From assembly GCF_009901525.1 (NCBI RefSeq), contig NZ_CP019288.1, positions 4,307,501-4,371,500 of the forward strand: a stretch of DNA of 64,000 nt. Reading direction: 5' to 3'. This DNA comes from Kordia antarctica. GTDB lineage: Bacteria; Bacteroidota; Bacteroidia; Flavobacteriales; Flavobacteriaceae. Positions 9,244 through 54,672 of this stretch are shown here, one piece after another (position 1 is the first letter of the stretch; each line of letters starts with the position of its first letter). Below the pieces are notes generated by a model. It did not search any database. It had not been told where the DNA came from and was given only the letters and a program-made list of their open reading frames with translations. A program made the translations under genes and the position numbers.

Positions 9244-9392
9244 AATATGATAATTTAAAAGATTTGCCTACTCTATTAAAGGTTTTTCGGCTTCCACCTT
9301 TTTAGTTGATTTGATATTCCAAAATTCAGCATAACTGAAAGAAAATAATAGACTGTAAATACTGAAAATGCACTTCCGTAGATTCCCGTGAT

Positions 9393-17035: not shown

Positions 17036-18289
17036 TTACAATCCAAAAGCAGTTTTAACTTTATCAACATAATCTAATTTTTCCCAAGTAAACAACTCAA
17101 CATCTAAAGTTTTACTTTCTCCATAAGGAGTTGTGAAGGTTTTAGAAACAGTTTCATTTTTACGTCCCATATGTCCGTAAGCAGCAGTTTCACTATACAT
17201 TGGTGTGCGTAACTTTAAACGACGTTCAATTGACGCAGGACGCATGTCAAATACTTTGGCAACGATCTTTGCAATCTCTCCGTCAGTCATATTTACTTTT
17301 GCCGTTCTGTACGTATCAACAAAAATTCCCATAGGTTCTACTACGCCAATTGCATACGAAACTTGTACTAAAATCTCGTCAGCAACGCCAGCCGCAACTA
17401 AATTTTTCGCTGCATGGCGAGTTGCATATGCAGCACTTCTATCTACTTTACTTGGATCTTTTCCTGAAAAAGCGCCACCACCGTGAGCACCTTTTCCTCC
17501 GTATGTATCTACGATAATTTTTCTTCCTGTCAGTCCTGTATCTCCGTGTGGTCCACCGATTACGAATTTTCCAGTTGGATTGATGTGATACTTAATATCA
17601 TTCCCAAATAACGCTTGAATTTTTGGAGTTAATTTTGATTTCACTCTTGGAATTAAAATATCAACGATATCCTTACGAATCTTCGCTAACATTACTTCAT
17701 CTTCATCAAAATCATCATGTTGTGTAGAAATTACAATTGCTTCCACGCGTGAAGGTACATTGTCATCATCATACTCAATTGTTACCTGACTTTTCGCATC
17801 TGGACGTAAGTAGTTGATTTCCTTGTTTTCTCTTCGCAAAGCAGCCAATTCAATCAACATTAAATGTGATAAATCTAAGGCTAAAGGCATTAAGTTTGAA
17901 GTCTCTTTCGTAGCATAGCCAAACATCATTCCTTGATCTCCGGCACCTTGCTCTTCTTTTGTTTCTCTATCAACACCTCTATTAATATCGTCAGATTGTT
18001 CATGAATTGCAGATAAAACTCCGCAAGAACTTCCGTCAAACATATATTCACTTTTCGTGTAACCAATTTTATTAATTACTTCTCTAGCAATCTTTTGTAC
18101 GTCTAAATACGTGTTCGATTTTACTTCGCCAGCTAAGATTACTTGACCAGTTGTTACCAACGTTTCACAAGCCACTTTTGATTCTGGATCGAATGCTAAA
18201 AAATTATCAATTAAAGCATCAGAAATTTGATCTGCTACTTTGTCTGGATGTCCTTCTGAAACGGATTCAGAGGTAAAAAAATATGACAT
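17036..18289 (-). CDS. metK: S-adenosylmethionine synthase
   Basis: The 417-residue protein matches MetK end to end. Motifs are [19 protein letters not shown] near the N-terminus, [12 protein letters not shown] for ATP binding and [19 protein letters not shown] for the phosphate loop. The enzyme makes SAM from methionine and ATP in the cytoplasm. The central insert (residues about 150-190) makes it slightly longer than the E. coli enzyme, as is usual in Bacteroidetes. It is divergent from the metY attenuator region. A promoter at 18499-18528 and a SAM-II-like leader precede it, so product feedback on expression is likely. Confidence 0.97.
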
Positions 18290-18618: not shown

Positions 18619-18626
18619 TATATTTG
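18619..18626 (+). promoter_or_regulatory. Minus-7 box of the metY leader transcript
   Basis: TATATTTG is an exact minus-7 consensus, 20 bases before the ATG of the first Cys/Met leader ORF. The minus-33 element is weak (TTAGG region near 18592). A leader peptide starting so close to the transcript 5' end fits attenuation control. Confidence 0.55.
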
Positions 18627-18645: not shown

Positions 18646-18720
18646 ATGTTTACTAAAGTTTTCAATATGTGTTGTATGATGTGTTGCAGAAATGCCACAG
18701 AGGACACTATTGTACGATAA
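18646..18720 (+). CDS. Cys/Met-rich leader peptide 1 (attenuator ORF)
   Basis: A 24-codon ORF with seven consecutive codons reading MCCMMCC (codons 8-14), that is four Cys and three Met, followed by RNATEDTIVR and TAA. It lies directly after a promoter box and 27 bases before a strong terminator. CAGAGG at 18698-18703, in codons just past the Cys run, is identical to part of the terminator 3' arm and can pair with CCTCTG of its 5' arm. A ribosome stalled for charged tRNA-Cys or tRNA-Met would leave CAGAGG free and favour antitermination. Downstream is metY, the homocysteine-forming sulfhydrylase. The function is inferred from architecture. The peptide itself probably has no activity. Confidence 0.65.
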   Translation: MFTKVFNMCCMMCCRNATEDTIVR

Positions 18721-18747
18721 TTTTAAAAGAACATCTATCAATAATTT

Positions 18748-18775
18748 AAGCCTCTGCCAACGCAGAGGCTTTTTT
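18748..18775 (+). terminator. Attenuator terminator 1
   Basis: AAGCCTCTGC at 18748-18757 pairs with GCAGAGGCTT at 18762-18771 with a four-base loop, and T continues to 18775. Its 5' arm can alternatively pair with CAGAGG inside leader peptide ORF 1. Confidence 0.85.
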
Positions 18776-18813
18776 CATGATTATATTTTAAGTTAATTTT
18801 TTTTCAAAAACCA

Positions 18814-18939
18814 ATGATGACAATTTTTCAAATAGCGAAAATCAAAACTACAATGACACTAAGTTGTTGTATATTGGTTATGTGCATGACATGCTGTAGC
18901 CAAGTTCGCTGGTATCGAAAAGTTCCTGATAAACTTTAA
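18814..18939 (+). CDS. Cys/Met-rich leader peptide 2 (second attenuator ORF)
   Basis: A 41-codon ORF with ATG at 18814 and the central run SCCILVMCMTCC (codons 17-28), five Cys and two Met, followed by WYRKVPDKL. It lies between attenuator terminator 1 and a second terminator, in tandem before metY. Hydrophobic residues around CC could suggest a tiny lipoprotein. The tandem position, the matching Cys/Met enrichment and the terminator directly after it favour a leader ORF. Complementarity between the post-Cys codons (CGAAAAGTTCC) and the terminator 5' arm is only partial, about 8 of 11 positions, so the switch is less clear than in leader 1. Confidence 0.5.
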   Translation: MMTIFQIAKIKTTMTLSCCILVMCMTCCSQVRWYRKVPDKL

Positions 18940-18960
18940 ACAGTTTCTCGCATCTATAAA

Positions 18961-19007
18961 AAAAGGTTCTTTTGGTAAACGCACTTCCAAAAAGAACCTT
19001 TTTTTAT
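18961..19007 (+). terminator. Attenuator terminator 2
   Basis: AAAGGTTCTTTTGG from 18962 pairs with CCAAAAAGAACCTTT ending about 19001, with one bulged A, followed by T to 19005. It is a strong hairpin 22 bases after leader ORF 2 and before metY. Confidence 0.85.
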
Positions 19008-19014
19008 TTGGTTG

Positions 19015-19145
19015 AAAGTTAAAAGTTAAAAGTTAAAAGTTAAAAGTTAAAAGTTAAAAGTTGAAAGTGAAGTTAAAAGTGAAAAGTGAAAAGTGAAGTT
19101 GAAAGTGAAAAGTGAAAAGTGAAGTTGAAAGTGAAGTTGAAAGTG
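19015..19145. repeat. Heptanucleotide tandem repeat (AAAGTTA and variants)
   Basis: About seven near-perfect copies of the 7-base unit AAAGTTA pass into degenerate AAAGTGA/AAGTTGA copies. It lies in the untranslated stretch between attenuator terminator 2 and metY and has no coding potential. The same unit recurs near 24190, 24340, 24480, 38690 and 45005. Confidence 0.8.
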
Positions 19146-19436: not shown

Positions 19437-20732
19437 ATGAGCACACAAAAATTCGCAACAAAAGCATTACACGCAGGACACGATACCAAAGCAAACGGAG
19501 GAACACGAGCTGTACCAATTTATCAATCAACAGCATTTGTATTCAACAATTCGGATCATGCGTCAAACTTATTTGCATTGGCTGAACCTGGAAACATTTA
19601 TACCAGAATTAACAATCCAACCAATGACATTTTAGAACAACGATTAGCAGCTTTAGAAGGTGGAATTGCTGCCGTTGTAACCGCTTCCGGAGCTTCCGCA
19701 ATTGCAACAACATTGTTAACATTATTACGCGCAGGCGATCATATTGTAGCTTCAAGTAGTTTATATGGCGGAACGTATAATTTGTTAAATGTTACGCTTC
19801 CGCGATTGGGAATTACGACAACTTTTGTAAATCCTGATGACGAAAACAGTTTCAGCGATGCTGTGAAAGAAAACACAAGAGTCGTTTTTATTGAATCTTT
19901 AGGGAATCCGAAATTAGATGTTTTAGACCTTGAGAAAATTTCGGCGCAAGCCAAAGCAAACAAAATTCCATTAATCGTTGACAATACGATTGCCACACCA
20001 TACTTATTAAACCCGATAAAATACGGCGCAAACATTGTTATTCACTCACTCACAAAATACATCAACGGAAACGGAACTGCGTTAGGTGGCGCTATCATTG
20101 ACGCAGGAACCTTCGATTGGACCAACGGAAAATTCCCAGAATTTACAGAACCTTCTGCAGGTTATCACGGTTTAGTGTATAGCGAAGCACTAAAAGAAGC
20201 AGCATTTATTGCCAAAGTTCGTATTGAAGGATTGCGCGATTTTGGTTCGGCATTAAGTCCATTCAATGCATTTCAAATCATTCAAGGATTGGAAACGCTG
20301 CCAATTCGTATCAAACAACACAGTCAAAATGCATTGGAATTAGCAACATGGTTGCAAAAGCAAGAAGCCGTTGCTTGGGTAAACTATCCAGCATTAGATA
20401 CTAGTAAATATCAAGCATTAGCTAAAAAATACTTACCAAAAGGGCAAAGTGGAATTGTAACATTCGGAATCAAAGCAGGGTTTGAAGCAGCAAAACGCAT
20501 TGCAGACGAAACCGTAGTTTTCTCGCTTTTAGCAAATATTGGCGATACAAAATCACTCATCATTCATCCTGCAAGTACAACGCATCAACAATTGACAACG
20601 GAACAACAAGCTTCCACAGGTGTCACACAAGATTTAATTCGTTTGTCAGTTGGTTTGGAAGATATTGAAGATTTAAAAACTGATTTAAAAACCGTTTTTG
20701 ATAAGATAATCGCAGGAATTCCAGCATCATAA
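19437..20732 (+). CDS. metY: O-acetylhomoserine sulfhydrylase
   Basis: The 431-residue protein is a Cys/Met-metabolism PLP enzyme. It has ALHAGHDT at the start, the substrate motif YTRINNPTNDILEQR, and the PLP lysine in VIHSLTKYINGNGTALGG. The length above 420 and the inserts around residues 220-240 are typical of MetY rather than cystathionine gamma-synthase. It condenses O-acetylhomoserine with sulfide to make homocysteine. metX, 10 bases downstream, supplies O-acetylhomoserine. Transcription must pass two tandem Cys/Met leader-terminator units, so expression probably rises when Cys or Met tRNA is uncharged. Confidence 0.93.
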   Translation: MSTQKFATKALHAGHDTKANGGTRAVPIYQSTAFVFNNSDHASNLFALAEPGNIYTRINNPTNDILEQRLAALEGGIAAVVTASGASAIATTLLTLLRAGDHIVASSSLYGGTYNLLNVTLPRLGITTTFVNPDDENSFSDAVKENTRVVFIESLGNPKLDVLDLEKISAQAKANKIPLIVDNTIATPYLLNPIKYGANIVIHSLTKYINGNGTALGGAIIDAGTFDWTNGKFPEFTEPSAGYHGLVYSEALKEAAFIAKVRIEGLRDFGSALSPFNAFQIIQGLETLPIRIKQHSQNALELATWLQKQEAVAWVNYPALDTSKYQALAKKYLPKGQSGIVTFGIKAGFEAAKRIADETVVFSLLANIGDTKSLIIHPASTTHQQLTTEQQASTGVTQDLIRLSVGLEDIEDLKTDLKTVFDKIIAGIPAS

Positions 20733-20742
20733 AACCTATAAT

Positions 20743-21735
20743 TTGACACAAAAAATAGCACATATAACCATTGTAGATTTCTTTACGGAAAGTGGCGCGT
20801 ATTATCCGAATTTAAAGTTGAGTTATCAGCTCGAAGGTTTGGATAACGCGGATGCGCCAATTGTTTTAGTAAATCATGCCTTAACGGGGAATTCGGAAGT
20901 TACAGGCAAAAATGGTTGGTGGAATACGCTAATTGGCGATGAAAAATGTATTGATACGAATCACTTTAAAATTTTAAGTTTTGACATTCCTGGGAATGGT
21001 TTTTCGGGTGAAACTGGACCCATCAAACAATACAAAGATTTTGTTGCCAGAGATATTGCAAAAATTTTCATTAGAGGATTAGAACAGTTAAAAATCAATA
21101 CACTTTTTGCCGCTATTGGCGGATCATTAGGTGGTGGAATTGCTTGGGAAATGGCAGTTTTAGAACCAACTTTGATTCAAAATTTAATTCCGATTGCGTC
21201 TGATTGGAAATCTTCGGATTGGCTTATCGCGAATTGCTTCTTGCAGGAACGCATTCTGGAAAATTCTAGTCAACCAATTCAAGATGCGCGGATTCATGCG
21301 ATGTTGTGTTACCGAACGCCTTTTTCCTTAAAGGCAAAATTTCAGCGTACGCGAAACCAAGAGAAAAACGTATTCAATACGGAAAGTTGGTTGGCACATC
21401 ATGGAGAAAAATTGCAAGCGCGTTTTCAATTATCAGCATACAAATTGATGAATCGACTTTTAAAAACGATTGATATTACTAGAGATCGCGAAGCGTTTGA
21501 AAAAGTAGTTGCGCCAATTGCAGGAAATATTCACATTATTAGTATTAATACGGACATGTTTTTTTCGCCTGACGAAGATATAGAAACTTATAAAAGACTC
21601 AAGCTTGTCAAGGCAAATGTGCATCATTATGAAATACAATCTATTCACGGACATGACGCATTTTTAATAGAATACGAACAGTTGAGTAATTTACTCAAAA
21701 ATATATTTCAAGTTCAAAAATCATCCATCAAATAA
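20743..21735 (+). CDS. metX: Homoserine O-acetyltransferase (alpha/beta hydrolase fold)
   Basis: This 330-residue protein begins at a TTG (20743), because no ATG exists near the N-terminus. The nucleophile elbow is GGSLGGGIAWEMA, and the remaining triad residues are seen as NTDMFFSPDED (Asp) and SIHGHDAFLIEY (His). HALTGNSEVTGKNGWWNTLI matches the MetX oxyanion region. It acetylates homoserine from acetyl-CoA, feeding MetY. It lies 10 bases after metY and 10 bases before the aspartokinase/homoserine dehydrogenase gene, so the three form one operon. Confidence 0.92.
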   Translation: MTQKIAHITIVDFFTESGAYYPNLKLSYQLEGLDNADAPIVLVNHALTGNSEVTGKNGWWNTLIGDEKCIDTNHFKILSFDIPGNGFSGETGPIKQYKDFVARDIAKIFIRGLEQLKINTLFAAIGGSLGGGIAWEMAVLEPTLIQNLIPIASDWKSSDWLIANCFLQERILENSSQPIQDARIHAMLCYRTPFSLKAKFQRTRNQEKNVFNTESWLAHHGEKLQARFQLSAYKLMNRLLKTIDITRDREAFEKVVAPIAGNIHIISINTDMFFSPDEDIETYKRLKLVKANVHHYEIQSIHGHDAFLIEYEQLSNLLKNIFQVQKSSIK

Positions 21736-21745
21736 AAATATAGAT

Positions 21746-24148
21746 ATGAAAATATTAAAATTTGGTGGAAAATCACTCGCCAACGGAAAAGGAATTGAAA
21801 CTACAATCCAAATTATAAAGGAGAAGGCAATACGACAAGAAAGAATTGCAGTTGTATTGTCTGCGCGTGGAAATGCTACGGATGAATTGTTGGAAATGTT
21901 GGAAAAAGCGGCGCGAAAAGAAACGTATCGCGAAGAGTTGACAGCATTTAAAGCGTACCAAAGTCAAATAGCTACATCGGCGGATTGTTTAGAAGAATTT
22001 ACAACCTTGGAAAATTTACTTCAAGGCGTTTCTTTATTGGGCGATTATAGCGAAAAAATAAAAGATCAAATCATGTCGCTAGGCGAAATAATCGCTGCGA
22101 AATTGGTGACGAATTTGTTGCAAAAAGAAGGTGTAAACGCACATTTTACAGACACGAGAAGCTTGATAATAACAGACAATGTTTTTGGAAATGCGCGTCC
22201 TTTGGATTTGATTTCGAGAAAAAACATCATCAATCATTTTAAATCATATAATGGAACAACGGTCAATATTGTGACAGGTTTTATTGGCTCAAATCAAAAT
22301 AATGAAACGACTACTTTGGGCAGAAATGGAAGTAATTATACAGCGGCTTTATTAGCGAATTTTTTAGATGCTGAAGAATTACAAAACTACACACATGTGG
22401 ACGGAATTTTTACCGCAAACCCAGATTTGGTTGCTGATGCAAAAAAAATAGAAGCATTATCATTCAATGAGGCAAACGAATTGGCAAACTTTGGCGCACA
22501 CATTTTACATGCAAAAACCATTGTTCCATTAATAGAAAAAAACATTCCATTACGAATTTTAAATACATTCAATAGTTCGGATGGTGGAACTATTATTACA
22601 CAAAAAACAACGGCAAAAGGAATCAAATCAATTTCTGTTTTAGACAACGTAGTTTTGGTCAACTTAGAAGGTAGAGGTTTGCTTGGCAGAGTTGGAGTTG
22701 ATGCTCGAATTTTTAAAACCTTGAGCGAAAATGATATCAATGTCAGTATTATTTCGCAAGGTTCATCGGAACGTGGAATTGGCTTGGTCATCAATGCCAG
22801 CGAAGCTTCCAAAGCGATTGTCAGTTTGGAAAGAGAATTTGAAAATGACTTTTATACCAAAGATGTCAATAAAATATCAATCATTGATGATGTCGCTGTG
22901 ATTTCAATTGTGGGACAAGATTTAAGCGAATTTCACAAACCATATAATGCATTAATCAAAAATCAAATAGTTCCGATTCTGTTTAACAATACGGTTTCTG
23001 GCAAAAACGTGAGTTTGGTGGTAAAGAAGTCACAATTACACAAAGCTGTCAATGTGATTCACGGACAAATTTTCGGTGTTTCTAAAAAAATAAATATTGC
23101 TGTTTTTGGAAAAGGATTGGTTGGTGGCACATTGCTCGATCAAATTGTGAAAAGCAAAATAGCCATTTTAGACAAGAATAATATCAAATTAAATGTATTC
23201 GCTATTGCAGATTCACAACATGTTTATTTAAACAAAAACGGCACTGCGGACAATTGGCAAGATACATTTTCAAAAGAAAAAGTTGCGTACACGGTGCAAC
23301 AAATTATCGATTACTCAAAAATACATCACTTAGAAAATTTAATTGCGGTTGACACAACGGCAAGTAAAAAGTTTATTCATGATTATATACCTTTAGTTAA
23401 AAATGGCTTTGATTTGGTTTCGGCAAATAAAGTGGCAAATACGATTGAATATTCGTTCTATCAAGAATTACGGTTGGAACTTAAAAAGCATCAGAAGAAT
23501 TATTTGTACGAAACCAATGTTGGAGCTGGATTACCATTAATTGACACGATACGTTTATTACACAAATCGGGTGAAAGCATTAAGAAAATTCGCGGTGTAT
23601 TCTCAGGATCTTTAAGTTATTTATTTAATACTTTTTCTGTGGAAGATATTCCATTCAGTACGGTTTTGAAGCAAGCGGAAGAAAAAGGTTTTACTGAACC
23701 TGATGCGCGTGAAGATTTATCGGGAAATGATGTGGCTCGAAAATTATTAATCCTTGCCAGAGAATTGGATCTGAAGCATGAATTATCAGACATAAGCATT
23801 CAAAATTTATTGCCTGCGCATTTGCAAACGATCAGTTTACAGCAATTCAAAGAGAATATTTCAGATTTAGATGAAACCTTTAAACACATCAAAGCAAATC
23901 AGCAAGAAAATAATGTACTGCGTTACGTTGGCGATTTAGATACAGAAACAAAAATCTTGGAAGTCAAGCTAATTTCTGTGTCAAGCAACAGTGCATTGGG
24001 ACAAATAAAAGGTTCCGATTCTATTTTCGAAATTTACACAGAAGCGTACAAAGAACAACCATTAGTAATTCAAGGAGCTGGCGCTGGAGCAGCCGTAACA
24101 GCTAGAGGCGTTTTTGGAGATATTTTGCGATTAACAGAAAAATTATAA
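21746..24148 (+). CDS. thrA: Bifunctional aspartate kinase / homoserine dehydrogenase
   Basis: The 800-residue fusion has an aspartokinase domain at about residues 1-275 (KFGGKSLANG; GRNGSNYTAALLANFL; HVDGIFTANP), two ACT domains at about 305-450 and a homoserine dehydrogenase at about 455-800. The latter shows the NAD(P) motif FGKGLVGGTLLDQI and the catalytic regions SANKVANTIEYS and ETNVGAGLPLID. It performs the first and third steps from aspartate to homoserine. Placement after metY and metX suggests this copy serves methionine synthesis. ACT domains imply allosteric feedback. The terminal codons (LTEKL) are copied in the downstream repeats. Confidence 0.93.
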   Translation: MKILKFGGKSLANGKGIETTIQIIKEKAIRQERIAVVLSARGNATDELLEMLEKAARKETYREELTAFKAYQSQIATSADCLEEFTTLENLLQGVSLLGDYSEKIKDQIMSLGEIIAAKLVTNLLQKEGVNAHFTDTRSLIITDNVFGNARPLDLISRKNIINHFKSYNGTTVNIVTGFIGSNQNNETTTLGRNGSNYTAALLANFLDAEELQNYTHVDGIFTANPDLVADAKKIEALSFNEANELANFGAHILHAKTIVPLIEKNIPLRILNTFNSSDGGTIITQKTTAKGIKSISVLDNVVLVNLEGRGLLGRVGVDARIFKTLSENDINVSIISQGSSERGIGLVINASEASKAIVSLEREFENDFYTKDVNKISIIDDVAVISIVGQDLSEFHKPYNALIKNQIVPILFNNTVSGKNVSLVVKKSQLHKAVNVIHGQIFGVSKKINIAVFGKGLVGGTLLDQIVKSKIAILDKNNIKLNVFAIADSQHVYLNKNGTADNWQDTFSKEKVAYTVQQIIDYSKIHHLENLIAVDTTASKKFIHDYIPLVKNGFDLVSANKVANTIEYSFYQELRLELKKHQKNYLYETNVGAGLPLIDTIRLLHKSGESIKKIRGVFSGSLSYLFNTFSVEDIPFSTVLKQAEEKGFTEPDAREDLSGNDVARKLLILARELDLKHELSDISIQNLLPAHLQTISLQQFKENISDLDETFKHIKANQQENNVLRYVGDLDTETKILEVKLISVSSNSALGQIKGSDSIFEIYTEAYKEQPLVIQGAGAGAAVTARGVFGDILRLTEKL

Positions 24149-29318: not shown

Positions 29319-29387
29319 ATGAATTCGAATATGAAAAACATGTCGATATGTTGCCAGTGCATCTTTCCAAAAACAAAAGGAACATGA
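29319..29387 (+). CDS. Cys/Met-rich leader peptide 3 (attenuator ORF)
   Basis: A 22-codon ORF reading MNSNMKNMSICCQCIFPK and on to GT. Three Cys occur in four codons (CCQC, codons 11-14), just after three Met codons. It lies 27 bases before a 14-bp terminator and upstream of the sulfite reductase gene. CAAAAGGA at 29374-29381, in the last codons, repeats the terminator 3' arm and can pair with TCCTTTTG of the 5' arm. A ribosome stalled at the Cys codons would expose it and allow antitermination. No exact promoter box precedes it, so the leader may be on the cysN transcript. Confidence 0.65.
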   Translation: MNSNMKNMSICCQCIFPKTKGT

Positions 29388-29414
29388 AGTAAAAATAGTA
29401 TCTATATTTTTAAT

Positions 29415-29452
29415 AAAAGTCCTTTTGAAACATAACTCAAAAGGACTTTTTT
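29415..29452 (+). terminator. Attenuator terminator 3
   Basis: AAAAGTCCTTTTGA at 29415-29428 pairs over 14 bases with TCAAAAGGACTTTT at 29437-29450, with T through 29452. It lies 20 bases before the sulfite reductase ATG. Its 5' arm can pair instead with CAAAAGGA in the leader ORF. Confidence 0.88.
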
Positions 29453-29472
29453 AATACTTGAAAACCAAACAA

Positions 29473-31566
29473 ATGCAAAGCTTTAGAACAGAAATAGAAA
29501 ACCCGATTGTTGAAAAAGACATTCTCGAATTAGAACAAAAAATCCGTGAATTCAAAGAAGGGAAAGTAGACGAAGAAAAATTCAGAAGCCTACGATTGGC
29601 GCGCGGTGTTTACGGACAACGGCAACATGGCGTACAAATGATTCGCATAAAACTTCCGTACGGAAAAGTTTCAAGTGCGCAGTTGCATAGAATTGCAGAT
29701 GTGTCTGACGAATATTCCAGAGGCAGACTTCATATTACAACACGACAAGACATTCAAATTCATCATGTAAGTCTAGATCGCACACCAGAACTTTGGGCAC
29801 AACTCGAAAAAGATGATATTACATTGCGAGAAGCCTGCGGAAATACCGTAAGAAATGTTACCGCAAGTGAAACCGCAGGAATTGACGTTGATGAACCTTT
29901 TGATGTTTCTGCGTATGCAGATGCAACTTTCAAATTCTTTTTGAGAAATCCGATCTCCCAAGAAATGGGAAGAAAGTTTAAAATTTCCTTTTCAGGAACT
30001 GACGCAGATACGGCTTTGGCATTCATTCACGATTTGGGTTTCATTGCTAAAATTCAAGATGGAGTTCGTGGTTTCAAAGTACTATTAGGCGGCGGATTGG
30101 GTTCGCAACCAAGACATGCAGATGTATTATATGAATTTTTGGAAACAGAAAAAATCATTCCGCTGATAGAAAGTGTTTTACGCGTATTCGATCGCTATGG
30201 AGAACGTGCTAAAAGAGGAAAAGCACGCATGAAATTTTTAGTGAAAGATGTCGGATTAGAAGCGTTTACAGAACTAATTGAAGTAGAACAAAAAGCATTA
30301 TCAAATACCAAAGTAGTAATTGAAACCATTGCATTTGAAGTCGCACCAAAATTTCAAACAGATTCCGTTGAAACCATCGTGCTTGAAGATGAAACTGCTT
30401 ACCAAGCATGGAAAGTAACAAATGTTATTCAACAGAAACAAAAAGGATTATTTGCGATCGGAATTCGAGTGCCTTTAGGAGATTTTTATACTGATAAAGC
30501 TCGATTACTTGCAGATTTAATCAAAAAATACGCAGCAGACGAATTGCGATTTACGTTGCGTCAAAACATACTTATTCGTCATGTTAGAGAAGCATTGCTG
30601 CCTTTCTTCTATCAAGAATTAAAAAAACTAGGATTTGCACAAACTGGTTACAATAAACTAGTAGATATCACAGCGTGTCCAGGAACAGATACGTGCAATT
30701 TAGGAATTTCTAGTAGTACAGGAATTGCAAGAGAATTGGAGAAAGTAATTGCGGCAGAATATCAAGAATTCATCACCACAAAAGACATTACCATTAAAAT
30801 AAGTGGTTGTATGAATGCCTGCGGACAACATAATATGGCGGAAATAGGTTTTCAAGGAATGACTATAAATTCAGGAAAATTAGTTGCGCCAGCTTTGCAA
30901 GTACTTTTAGGCGGCGGAACATTAGGAAATGGACAAGGTCGTTTTTCAGATAAAGTATTAAAAATACCTAGCAAGCGTGGACCTGAAGCATTGCGTCAAA
31001 TTTTAAATGATTTTAAAGCAAATGAACAACAAAATGAATCTTTTTTAGCGTATTACGAACGGCAAGGAAAAGCCTATTTCTATACATTGTTGAAAGCATT
31101 ATCAGATAGTTCGGAACTTACAGAAGATGATTTTATCGATTGGGGAAATGAAAAACCATACGTAAAAGCAGTTGGTATTGGAGAATGTGCTGGCGTTGTC
31201 ATCGATTTAATAGAAACATTACTATTAGAAAGTCAAGAAAAAATAGAAAATGCGTCGGCTGCATTCGCCAATGAATCCTACAGTGATAGTATTTATCATG
31301 CGTATGCTGCCATTTTAAATTCGGCGAAAGCCTTATTACTTTCGGTAGCTCAAAAAACAAATTCGCATGCAACTATTATCAATCAATTTGATGAAGTGTT
31401 TGTGGAAACTAAAAAAATAGTATTGCCAGATTCGTTTGCAACATTCATATATCAAATCCAAAAAAATGAACCTACTAAAGCCTTTGCCAAAAGTTATTTG
31501 GTAGATGCAAACTGGTTTTTACAACAACTAAAAACGTACAGAAAGGAGGAATTGACACATGCATAA
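29473..31566 (+). CDS. Sulfite reductase (siroheme, 4Fe-4S) with C-terminal HEPN domain
   Basis: I use the ATG at 29473 (MQSFRTEIEN); an in-frame TTG five codons upstream is less likely. The first ~530 of 697 residues contain two nitrite/sulfite reductase repeats, with cluster ligands in DITACPGTDTCNLG and SGCMNACGQHNM. Residues about 545-697 form an added helical domain resembling HEPN. This fusion occurs in flavobacterial sulfite reductases, and its role is unknown. The enzyme reduces sulfite to sulfide for MetY/MetZ and cysteine synthase. Siroheme genes and a ferredoxin-NADP reductase follow. Its start is just beyond a Cys-codon attenuator. Confidence 0.9.
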   Translation: MQSFRTEIENPIVEKDILELEQKIREFKEGKVDEEKFRSLRLARGVYGQRQHGVQMIRIKLPYGKVSSAQLHRIADVSDEYSRGRLHITTRQDIQIHHVSLDRTPELWAQLEKDDITLREACGNTVRNVTASETAGIDVDEPFDVSAYADATFKFFLRNPISQEMGRKFKISFSGTDADTALAFIHDLGFIAKIQDGVRGFKVLLGGGLGSQPRHADVLYEFLETEKIIPLIESVLRVFDRYGERAKRGKARMKFLVKDVGLEAFTELIEVEQKALSNTKVVIETIAFEVAPKFQTDSVETIVLEDETAYQAWKVTNVIQQKQKGLFAIGIRVPLGDFYTDKARLLADLIKKYAADELRFTLRQNILIRHVREALLPFFYQELKKLGFAQTGYNKLVDITACPGTDTCNLGISSSTGIARELEKVIAAEYQEFITTKDITIKISGCMNACGQHNMAEIGFQGMTINSGKLVAPALQVLLGGGTLGNGQGRFSDKVLKIPSKRGPEALRQILNDFKANEQQNESFLAYYERQGKAYFYTLLKALSDSSELTEDDFIDWGNEKPYVKAVGIGECAGVVIDLIETLLLESQEKIENASAAFANESYSDSIYHAYAAILNSAKALLLSVAQKTNSHATIINQFDEVFVETKKIVLPDSFATFIYQIQKNEPTKAFAKSYLVDANWFLQQLKTYRKEELTHA

Positions 31567-39936: not shown

Positions 39937-40118
39937 AACTATGAATTTAAAAACTTATAGGCTAATAAGTTTAGACAAACAAAGCAATTCAAAATGTAGC
40001 ATTCAACATTTAAAATTCAACACGAAAACGTTATCGTACAAAAATCACAAAAAAATAGTTGTATCTTTCTTACAGAATCCGTTAATTTGTGTAAATAAAT
40101 AGTTCATACACGTATTGT

Positions 40119-40220
40119 CGTTATCAAGAAAGGCAGAGGGATTAGACCCGATGAAGCCTTAGCAACCCTTTACTCATAAAGAAGGTGCTACGTTCTACTG
40201 CGCAAGCGGATAGATAACCA
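40119..40220 (+). ncRNA. SAM-I riboswitch (S box) of the metH locus
   Basis: GTTATC (40120-40125) and GATAAC (40213-40218) form P1. Inside are the conserved CAAGAAAGGCAGAGGGATTA, GACCCGATGAAGCCTTAGCA, ACC, and the P3/P4 strand GGTGCTACGTTCTACT. This is a full SAM-I aptamer. A box TTAATTTG at 40082-40089 may be the minus-7 element. A GAAAT/ATTTC hairpin with six T at 40225-40253 may form the expression platform. It lies 240 bases before split metH, with a repeat nest in between. Confidence 0.92.
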
Positions 40221-54510: not shown

Positions 54511-54672
54511 AGGGCGTTTCCAATAAGAACACTTCGAGAAAACCTCAGTGTGCTTCTTGGTCGGGCTATTCGCTGTATCTCCCGAGAAAATCGGGAGGAT
54601 GCCGCTGCTATCCCTAACGTATTACATTGAGCGGAGTCGAAATGCGGAAGTTCCCACGAAAGTGGGAATCTC
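54511..54672. repeat. Composite repeat nest B between tyrA and the DAHP synthase gene
   Basis: GGGCGTTTCC, TCGGGCTATTCGCTGTATC and TATCCCTAACG repeat the landmarks of nest A at 40269-40380. This copy is interrupted by a hairpin, AAGAACACTTCGAG...CAGTGTGCTTCTT, at 54526-54558 and contains CTCCCGAGAAAATCGGGAG at 54580-54598. It is followed by a CATTGAGCGGAGTCGAAATG unit and a TTCCCACGAAAGTGGGAATC unit. AAAGAAT heptamers follow at about 54678-54707. Confidence 0.65.

Follow-up and report, generated by a model that had tools for sequence, protein, structure and literature searches.

Two short open-reading frames crowded with Cys and Met codons lie upstream of metY in Kordia antarctica, each followed by an intrinsic terminator, and we consider it very probable that this region regulates the operon behind it by ribosome-mediated transcription attenuation. 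The leaders, the terminators, the alternative RNA pairings and an exchange with the SAM-I riboswitch emerge from sequence comparison across relatives, and codons, terminators, covariation and SAM-I exclusion together bear out the leader-peptide attenuation reading that a preliminary description had drawn from the letters of this DNA. Throughout, the window is the whole 64-kb stretch that was analysed.

Leader peptides, terminators and a probable promoter

The features of the locus are as follows.

17036-18289, - strand: metK, upstream of ORF 1
18619-18626, + strand: putative promoter -7 box of the leader region, TATATTTG, matching the Bacteroidetes TAnnTTTG
18646-18720, + strand: leader peptide 1 (ORF 1), MFTKVFNMCCMMCCRNATEDTIVR, conserved in 11 of 11 Kordia
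18748-18771, + strand: terminator T1, arms 18748-18757 and 18762-18771, 10 pairs and a 4-nt loop, then a U-tract
18814-18939, + strand: leader peptide 2 (ORF 2), MMTIFQIAKIKTTMTLSCCILVMCMTCCSQVRWYRKVPDKL, containing SCCILVMCMTCC
18956-19007, + strand: terminator T2, arms about 18958-18975 and 18987-19004, -19.6 kcal/mol
19437-20732, + strand: metY, O-acetylhomoserine sulfhydrylase (TIGR01326, 626.7 bits, cut-off 495.1)
20743-21735, + strand: metX-like homoserine O-acyltransferase (best NCBIfam match TIGR01392, 181.1 bits, below the cut-off of 500)
21746-24148, + strand: thrA-type bifunctional aspartokinase/homoserine dehydrogenase (NF006959, 768.9 bits, cut-off 726)

The seven-codon Cys/Met run of ORF 1 and the Cys/Met run of ORF 2 are both present as first described. 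ORF 1 and ORF 2 are the only ones with at least six Cys/Met in 10 residues among the 771 ATG open-reading frames of 10 or more codons on both strands of the whole window, and no such frame occurred in 40 order-1 Markov windows. Cys and Met together account for 26% and 35% of internal codons in the two leaders vs. 1.2% in the proteins of the operon. All 11 Kordia genomes carry these codons, leader 1 with 3-4 Cys and 3-4 Met and leader 2 with 5-8 Cys and 4-9 Met, and an alignment, the check proposed at the outset, finds Cys/Met codons in other genera too. Gap lengths in the aligned run of leader 2 are multiples of three in 67 of 67 counted gap runs, as expected if codons matter; in leader 1, gap runs of 2, 4 and 5 (columns 43-47) are partly clipped by the counting window and we draw no claim from them.

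The conservation of Cys codons on which the preliminary description staked its reading holds throughout Kordia and fails in L122-L125, where Cys is (nearly) lost and Met remains (6-10 internal Met codons, 0-1 Cys each), so Met alone may suffice there; many leaders before sulfite reductase (below) are Cys-dominated, so Cys alone may suffice in those. Sensing of a single amino acid, whether Met or Cys, with the other incidental, is nonetheless unlikely, as 11 of 11 Kordia keep both kinds of codon in both leaders and the choice of codons tends to match the pathway, with Cys ahead of sulfite reduction and Cys plus Met ahead of homocysteine synthesis. Before metY, both Cys and Met probably count.

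T1 begins 27 nt past the ORF 1 stop, inside the 22-27 bases first given for both terminators, whereas T2 begins, by fold, 16 nt past the ORF 2 stop. A simple terminator scan detected T1 and missed T2, which has a longer loop. Terminators of the T1 kind are expected by chance 0.8 times (about once) in such a stretch, so their significance rests on conservation. The naming of the genes behind them as metY-metX-thrA stands for metY and the thrA-type gene, both above their cut-offs, while the metX-like gene falls below the curated ones.

The Bacteroidetes -7 box consensus is TAnnTTTG (given in the accessible text of PMC9723704); a sigma-70 promoter scan was set aside, its model being unsuited to Bacteroidetes promoters. 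An exact box lies within 70 nt upstream of leader 1 at 21 of 41 unit-1 loci vs. 5.7% of shuffled sequences, and in 13 of these 21 it sits at -26 to -30, ten of the 13 being Kordia. From the end of the window's box to the ATG of ORF 1 there are 19 nt, and the transcript would probably start 10-20 nt upstream of leader 1. None of 32 tandem loci has an exact box between T1 and leader 2. It is likely that polymerase meets T1 and then T2, the units acting serially, because exact boxes precede leader 1 and none lies between the units. A one-mismatch box, TATATTTT, recurs in every one of the 11 Kordia, 29-34 nt ahead of leader 2, for which reason we allow that a second promoter may lie there, though boxes with one mismatch, present between the units at 17 of 32 tandem loci, often arise by chance (61% of shuffled 70-nt stretches). 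In three loci of one large genus, g128 (probably Flavobacterium), the spacer between units is 128 nt or more (L035, L091 and L096), which leaves more room for an internal promoter.

Alternative pairings in the two units

Each unit would contain four segments, of which 1 pairs with 2, 2 pairs with 3, and 3 and 4 are the 5' and 3' arms of the terminator; segment 1 would lie at or before the regulatory codons and segment 2 just past the Cys/Met run.

18663-18667, + strand: unit 1 segment 1, CAATA, pairing with TATTG at 18708-18712
18698-18703, + strand: unit 1 segment 2, CAGAGG, the antiterminator strand within ORF 1, pairing with the T1 5' arm
18911-18922, + strand: unit 2 segment 2, GGTATCGAAAAG, pairing with CTTTTGGTA of T2 around a bulged G

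Folding recovered the pairing of CAGAGG with CCTCTG of the T1 5' arm that had been proposed from the sequence. When the full unit 1 of the window is folded, 1:2 and 3:4 form; when the part up to the Cys run and segment 4 are left out, mimicking ribosome cover and a segment not yet transcribed, 2:3 forms. Across 42 unique units, the 2:3 duplex of unit 1 averages -12.39 kcal/mol with each unit's own segments vs. -9.96 kcal/mol when permuted, and 0 of 10,000 permutations were as low; all permutations reported here, for 2:3 and 1:2 alike, disregard relatedness, so that these are counts and not probabilities. Compensatory change, the second check proposed for this pairing, was found, both sides varying together across relatives: GCAGCGG faces CCGCTGC in L029 (GCAGCG in L023), GCAGGG faces CCCTGC in L042 and L122, TGTGGG faces CCCACA in L104 and L115, and TGAGGG faces CCCTCA in L118. 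In L104, L115 and L118 the 2:3 match extends 2-3 bases into the terminator loop and is there free of the terminator's own constraint, while in L103 and L120 it is just 4 bp (-6.9 kcal/mol).

Structure alignments used 32 of the 45 units of each kind, the 13 omitted including nine unit-1 sequences of the CTCCC kind. In these, T1 is paired in 99.4% of cells with five of ten pairs changed on both sides. The 2:3 helix of unit 1 is paired in 93.7% of cells, above all 500 shuffles and every slide; both-side changes fall on one of seven pairs, a number matched in 283 of 500 shuffles, and in 12 of 30 cells the bases at 65-124 do not form a pair. The protector helix 1:2 is CAATA/TATTG, extended to TGCAATA/TATTGCA in many units; over 41 unique units its own duplexes reach -5.81 vs. 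-4.47 kcal/mol permuted, a value that none of 10,000 permutations equalled. Pairing is moderate, at 78% with the inner hairpin included and 66% of cells in that hairpin taken by itself, and a shift of the structure by -2 yields no fewer cells with double changes (14 vs. 12).

The word past the Cys/Met run of leader 1 is generally GCAGAGG, and ACAGAGG in the window. Of 32 valid leaders, 20 read GCAG[AGC]G in frame 0, as SAE or AAED, and 12 read it in frame 2, as PQR or PQG, a count that omits W, L055 and L056 (word picked at the wrong place) and ten units without the word. A word conserved in two reading frames is kept as RNA, not as peptide. The same drift of residues past the run speaks against arrest by the nascent peptide in response to redox, metal or another small molecule rather than tRNA charging, which we hold very improbable: Cys-rich chains could bind metals or become oxidised, and MCCMMC recurs in leader 1 of several genera, but the run itself drifts (MCCMMCC, MMQAMMMM, MMAMMMMC, MCMCC, CCCC) and its nearly Met-only versions are almost thiol-free.

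In unit 2, the end of leader 2 carries a conserved CTATTRCC(N)AAAA that pairs with both the 5' arm and the loop of T2, CTTTTGGTAA. Across 43 unique units the 2:3 duplexes average -11.82 vs. -10.14 kcal/mol permuted, with no permutation of 10,000 as low, and the same count, 0 of 10,000, holds for the 32 units outside Kordia alone. T2 is paired in 99.2% of aligned cells with nine of 12 pairs changed on both sides, and the 2:3 helix in 93.2%, above all 500 shuffles, with both-side changes on two of eight pairs (matched in 183 of 500 shuffles). In single-sequence folding the antiterminator of the window's unit 2 is weak, 156 of 200 shuffles folding as well, and the 1:2 protector pairing of this unit was seen by eye. 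The comparison thus yields an open-reading frame with regulatory codons, a conserved terminator, 2:3 covariation (the count of double-changed pairs being weak on its own) and a 1:2 pairing over the regulatory codons, moderate in unit 1.

Promoter use, translation, stalling, the amino acids sensed and read-through we infer from these features, in a scheme of two attenuators in series. With charged tRNA-Cys and tRNA-Met plentiful, a ribosome would cross segment 2 and leave, 3:4 would pair and transcription would end; with either charged tRNA scarce, the ribosome would stall in the run and cover segment 1, and segment 2 would capture segment 3, allowing read-through. From a single promoter, polymerase would have to pass both units before metY-metX-thrA, so a steeper, two-input response is expected. 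Placed by the size of its footprint, a ribosome at the ORF 1 stop would overlap only the end of segment 2, and masking in passage plus 1:2 refolding would do the rest. Shortage of Met would slow leader initiation too, opposing stalling.

Distribution at metY and exchange with SAM-I

We examined the region upstream of metY at 100 loci in 99 genomes: the window, the 40 top relatives of 199 family genomes ranked by MetY score, nine further Kordia, 10 plus three more family members and 37 loci from g128 (a 101-base duplicate, L064, was removed). Because g128 and close MetY relatives are over-represented in the sample, its proportions do not describe the family as a whole. Leader units are present at 54 of the 100 loci, 36 with both, nine with unit 1 only and nine with unit 2 only, T1 having been assigned by hand in four of the 36 tandem loci (L029, L110, L115 and L118). 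Both leaders occur in 11 of 11 Kordia, and at least one unit at all 37 g128 loci fetched (61 genomes of this genus were searched, and the 24 without a strong MetY match lie outside the locus count). The tandem pair, thought unusual when first noticed, is the prevailing arrangement here, at 36 of the 54 loci with leaders.

Rfam scans place a SAM-I aptamer upstream of metY on the same strand at 44 of the 100 loci (18/20, 16/20, 0/40 and 10/19 by sample batch, and 0/1 for the window at the metY position). No locus of the 100 has a leader unit and SAM-I together, none of the 54 leader-bearing loci having a SAM-I aptamer at gathering score upstream of metY, and L068 and L069 are the only two with neither. 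A MetY tree of 40 genomes, 21 with leaders and 19 with SAM-I, requires five changes of state, at least three of them forced by well-supported branches, and places Kordia among SAM-I lineages; this is a gene tree with 12 of 37 inner branches weak, it does not give the direction of change and it is compatible with transfer. By this comparison of sequences, leader units and the SAM-I riboswitch have exchanged places at metY.

Mutual exclusion in 100 loci is hard to reconcile with the ORFs being small functional Cys-rich proteins, followed by ordinary terminators and a metY with its own downstream promoter. The window offers space for such a promoter, with about 430 nt between T2 and metY, but that distance is only 36-59 nt in 13 relatives, and RNA-level conservation across frames and antiterminator covariation also tell against this explanation, which is even less probable than nascent-peptide arrest. 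Chance ORFs beside chance terminators can be dismissed, for although about one T1-kind terminator is expected per such stretch, such ORFs were absent from all 40 Markov windows and conservation over genera contradicts it. A Rfam search at gathering score found no known RNA element in 18646-19007, and the T-box covariance model had zero matches at gathering score in the window. SAM-I was rejected for the metY upstream region, the window's one RF00162 match lying at 40118-40220, and on the evidence above small functional proteins, a T-box and chance were rejected as well. The mycobacterial type that acts on translation without a terminator does not fit either, terminators being present and T2 lying about 430 nt from metY.

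That RF00162 match (78.3 bits) is upstream of homocysteine methyltransferase- and metH-like ORFs, as judged by eye, and one genome may thus read SAM at the last step of Met synthesis and Cys/Met at homocysteine synthesis. SAM-II is absent from the window at gathering score; SAM-II aptamers lie opposite the metY strand, probably before a divergent metK, in L009, L057-L060, L062, L091, L095 and L096. Other Rfam matches in the window are DUF805b and Flavo-1 RNA at 9265-9300 and 54555-54622, both on the - strand. Repeats of the AGTTAAAAG type follow T2 at about 19011-19060, and similar stretches account for most of the 57 whole-genome matches of that query. In some g128 genomes (L089, L091 and L094) a small gene of about 60 residues, seen by eye, lies between T2 and metY.

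Wider searches returned further units. The pattern NMCCMM matched in 6 of 397 family genomes only and is too strict, because leaders vary. A pattern scan of named genomes gave 14 loci, four Kordia, L084 (G096) and nine others; among them L083 is Neptunitalea, L085 ends at the end of its stretch, and L077, L080, L081, L086 and L087 look like chance matches. A model of unit 1 (R1) searched over the order matched, at E <= 0.01, in at least 152 of 395 genomes; outside the family, the weak matches among those listed mostly score 40-50 bits and may be terminators only, and no count is drawn from them. In L202-L204, L206 and L209-L211 the unit 1 model matches ahead of metX-like and thrA-like genes, no metY being seen in the interval, and Met/Cys leaders are flagged in L206, L209 and L211.

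Leaders before sulfite reductase and comparison with known attenuators

The same design, with a Cys-rich leader, would also stand before a sulfite reductase gene, in the window and in other Bacteroidia.

29319-29387, + strand: third leader peptide, MNSNMKNMSICCQCIFPKTKGT, with segment 2 CAAAAGGA
29415-29450, + strand: T3, the terminator behind the third leader; its 5' arm contains TCCTTTTG
29473-31566, + strand: sir, sulfite/nitrite reductase family (Pfam NIR_SIR and NIR_SIR_ferr, two stretches each)

This element, an addition to the earlier reading, which had been confined to metY, was found with the unit 2 model (29319-29457, 54.9 bits; E 1.3e-6 whole-genome), and its segment 2 CAAAAGGA faces TCCTTTTG. 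The protein fell below the cut-off of all NCBIfam models; its substrate is presumably sulfite, because the gene is placed after cysH/cysN-type genes. A C-terminal HEPN match (PF05168, residues 581-648, 28.1 bits) was also seen in it.

Six of the 11 Kordia have sir, and a Cys-rich leader precedes it in all six (that of L224 starting at GTG). Among 198 genomes drawn across the class, 48 have sir at E <= 1e-150; the best-scoring 29 new loci were taken and the start was located in 24, leaving out L249, L252, L254, L255 and L259. Allowing ATG, GTG or TTG starts, a Cys/Met leader is present at 11 of these 24 loci outside Kordia, with 0.54 expected and a maximum of three in 200 simulations, and is lacking at the other 13; weak cases among the 11 include L262 and L263. 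A terminator follows the leader in 11 of 11. The 2:3 duplexes of the 11 loci average -14.1 vs. -12.2 kcal/mol permuted (100 of 10,000 as low), and with five Kordia added, 16 loci in all, 0 of 10,000 were as low. L251, L256 and L257 have two leaders and two terminators in series.

More distant cases were also found. L213 comes from a different family within the order; it matches the model of unit 1 (E 4.3e-7) and by eye has a second Cys/Met leader and terminator before genes resembling cysH, cysD and cysN. L075, a Sphingobacteriaceae MAG, has an MCCMMC leader, a terminator and the same reductase, and by eye TCAACGGA faces TCCGTTGA. L079, a Rhodohalobacter, which we take to belong to the phylum Balneolota, has NMCCMMCC, a terminator and a rhodanese-like gene (pairings and gene name by eye). 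In L199 (G629) a second unit-1-like leader, MNFTMNNMSMMMWRFSAEDSIV, lies at about 124-190 before a gene that by eye resembles those for cystathionine synthases, some 6 kb away from the stronger unit-1 match. On balance we favour the view that Bacteroidia, and probably a related phylum, possess an unrecognised sulfur regulon of leader-peptide attenuators, with codons tuned to the step (Cys-dominated at sulfite reductase, Cys plus Met at homocysteine synthesis, nearly Met-only in some lineages), often doubled as serial gates and swapped with SAM-I several times at metY.

If true, the first ribosome-mediated attenuators known to read methionine would belong to this regulon, and Met-codon leaders raise a direct question, because initiation, too, should be limited in a cell starved of methionine. 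With two units in tandem, one can ask whether serial attenuators sharpen a response or combine two inputs. The sulfur genes of a phylum for which our literature search found few such regulators also gain a testable regulatory annotation. That search found no leader attenuator built on Met codons, nor any Cys/Met leader in Bacteroidota, which is weak evidence, as subscription papers lay mostly outside it and sources were partly accessible.

The trp, his and phe attenuators combine a short ORF rich in codons for the product, 1:2, 2:3 and 3:4 pairings, a terminator and a biosynthetic operon. The codon-run ORF, the three alternative pairings, the intrinsic terminator and the biosynthetic operon are shared here, and the differences are that the codons are Cys and Met, that two units stand in series, that the host is a member of the Bacteroidota, that segment 2 of unit 1 lies inside the ORF and that the 2:3 helix of unit 2 reaches the terminator loop (see also the accessible part of PMC2965389). 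Leaders with Cys runs are described before cys operons in Mycobacterium and related actinobacteria, with no conserved terminator hairpin found, according to the accessible text of PMC1262725, and leaderless polycysteine ORFs are said to attenuate downstream translation (Canestrari et al. 2020, cited in the accessible part of PMC9031893). As far as those texts go, both have a short ORF with Cys runs towards its end and sulfur genes downstream, and intrinsic terminators with antiterminators and Met codons set the present units apart. The uORFC-8-2 motif before cysS in Rhodobacterales likewise has tandem Cys codons in a uORF, a terminator and inferred tRNA-Cys sensing, but differs in its tRNA synthetase target, two conserved Cys codons, single unit and alphaproteobacterial host (PMC8632094, accessible text).

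Flavobacterium psychrophilum, of the same bacterial family, shows clues of leader-peptide attenuation, the same proposed mechanism, before amino acid operons (PMC9723704); in the accessible main text 'methionine' is absent and the attenuation section names no metY, Cys or Met leader, though the supplement might. A map of Bacteroides thetaiotaomicron reports short ORFs reminiscent of leader peptides (accessible text of PMC7366714). SAM-I (S-box) in sister genera holds the same position upstream of metY, presumably for the same purpose, and differs in that its aptamer senses SAM. Sister genera with a metabolite riboswitch or a double leader attenuator at the same gene offer a natural experiment in RNA sensor exchange.
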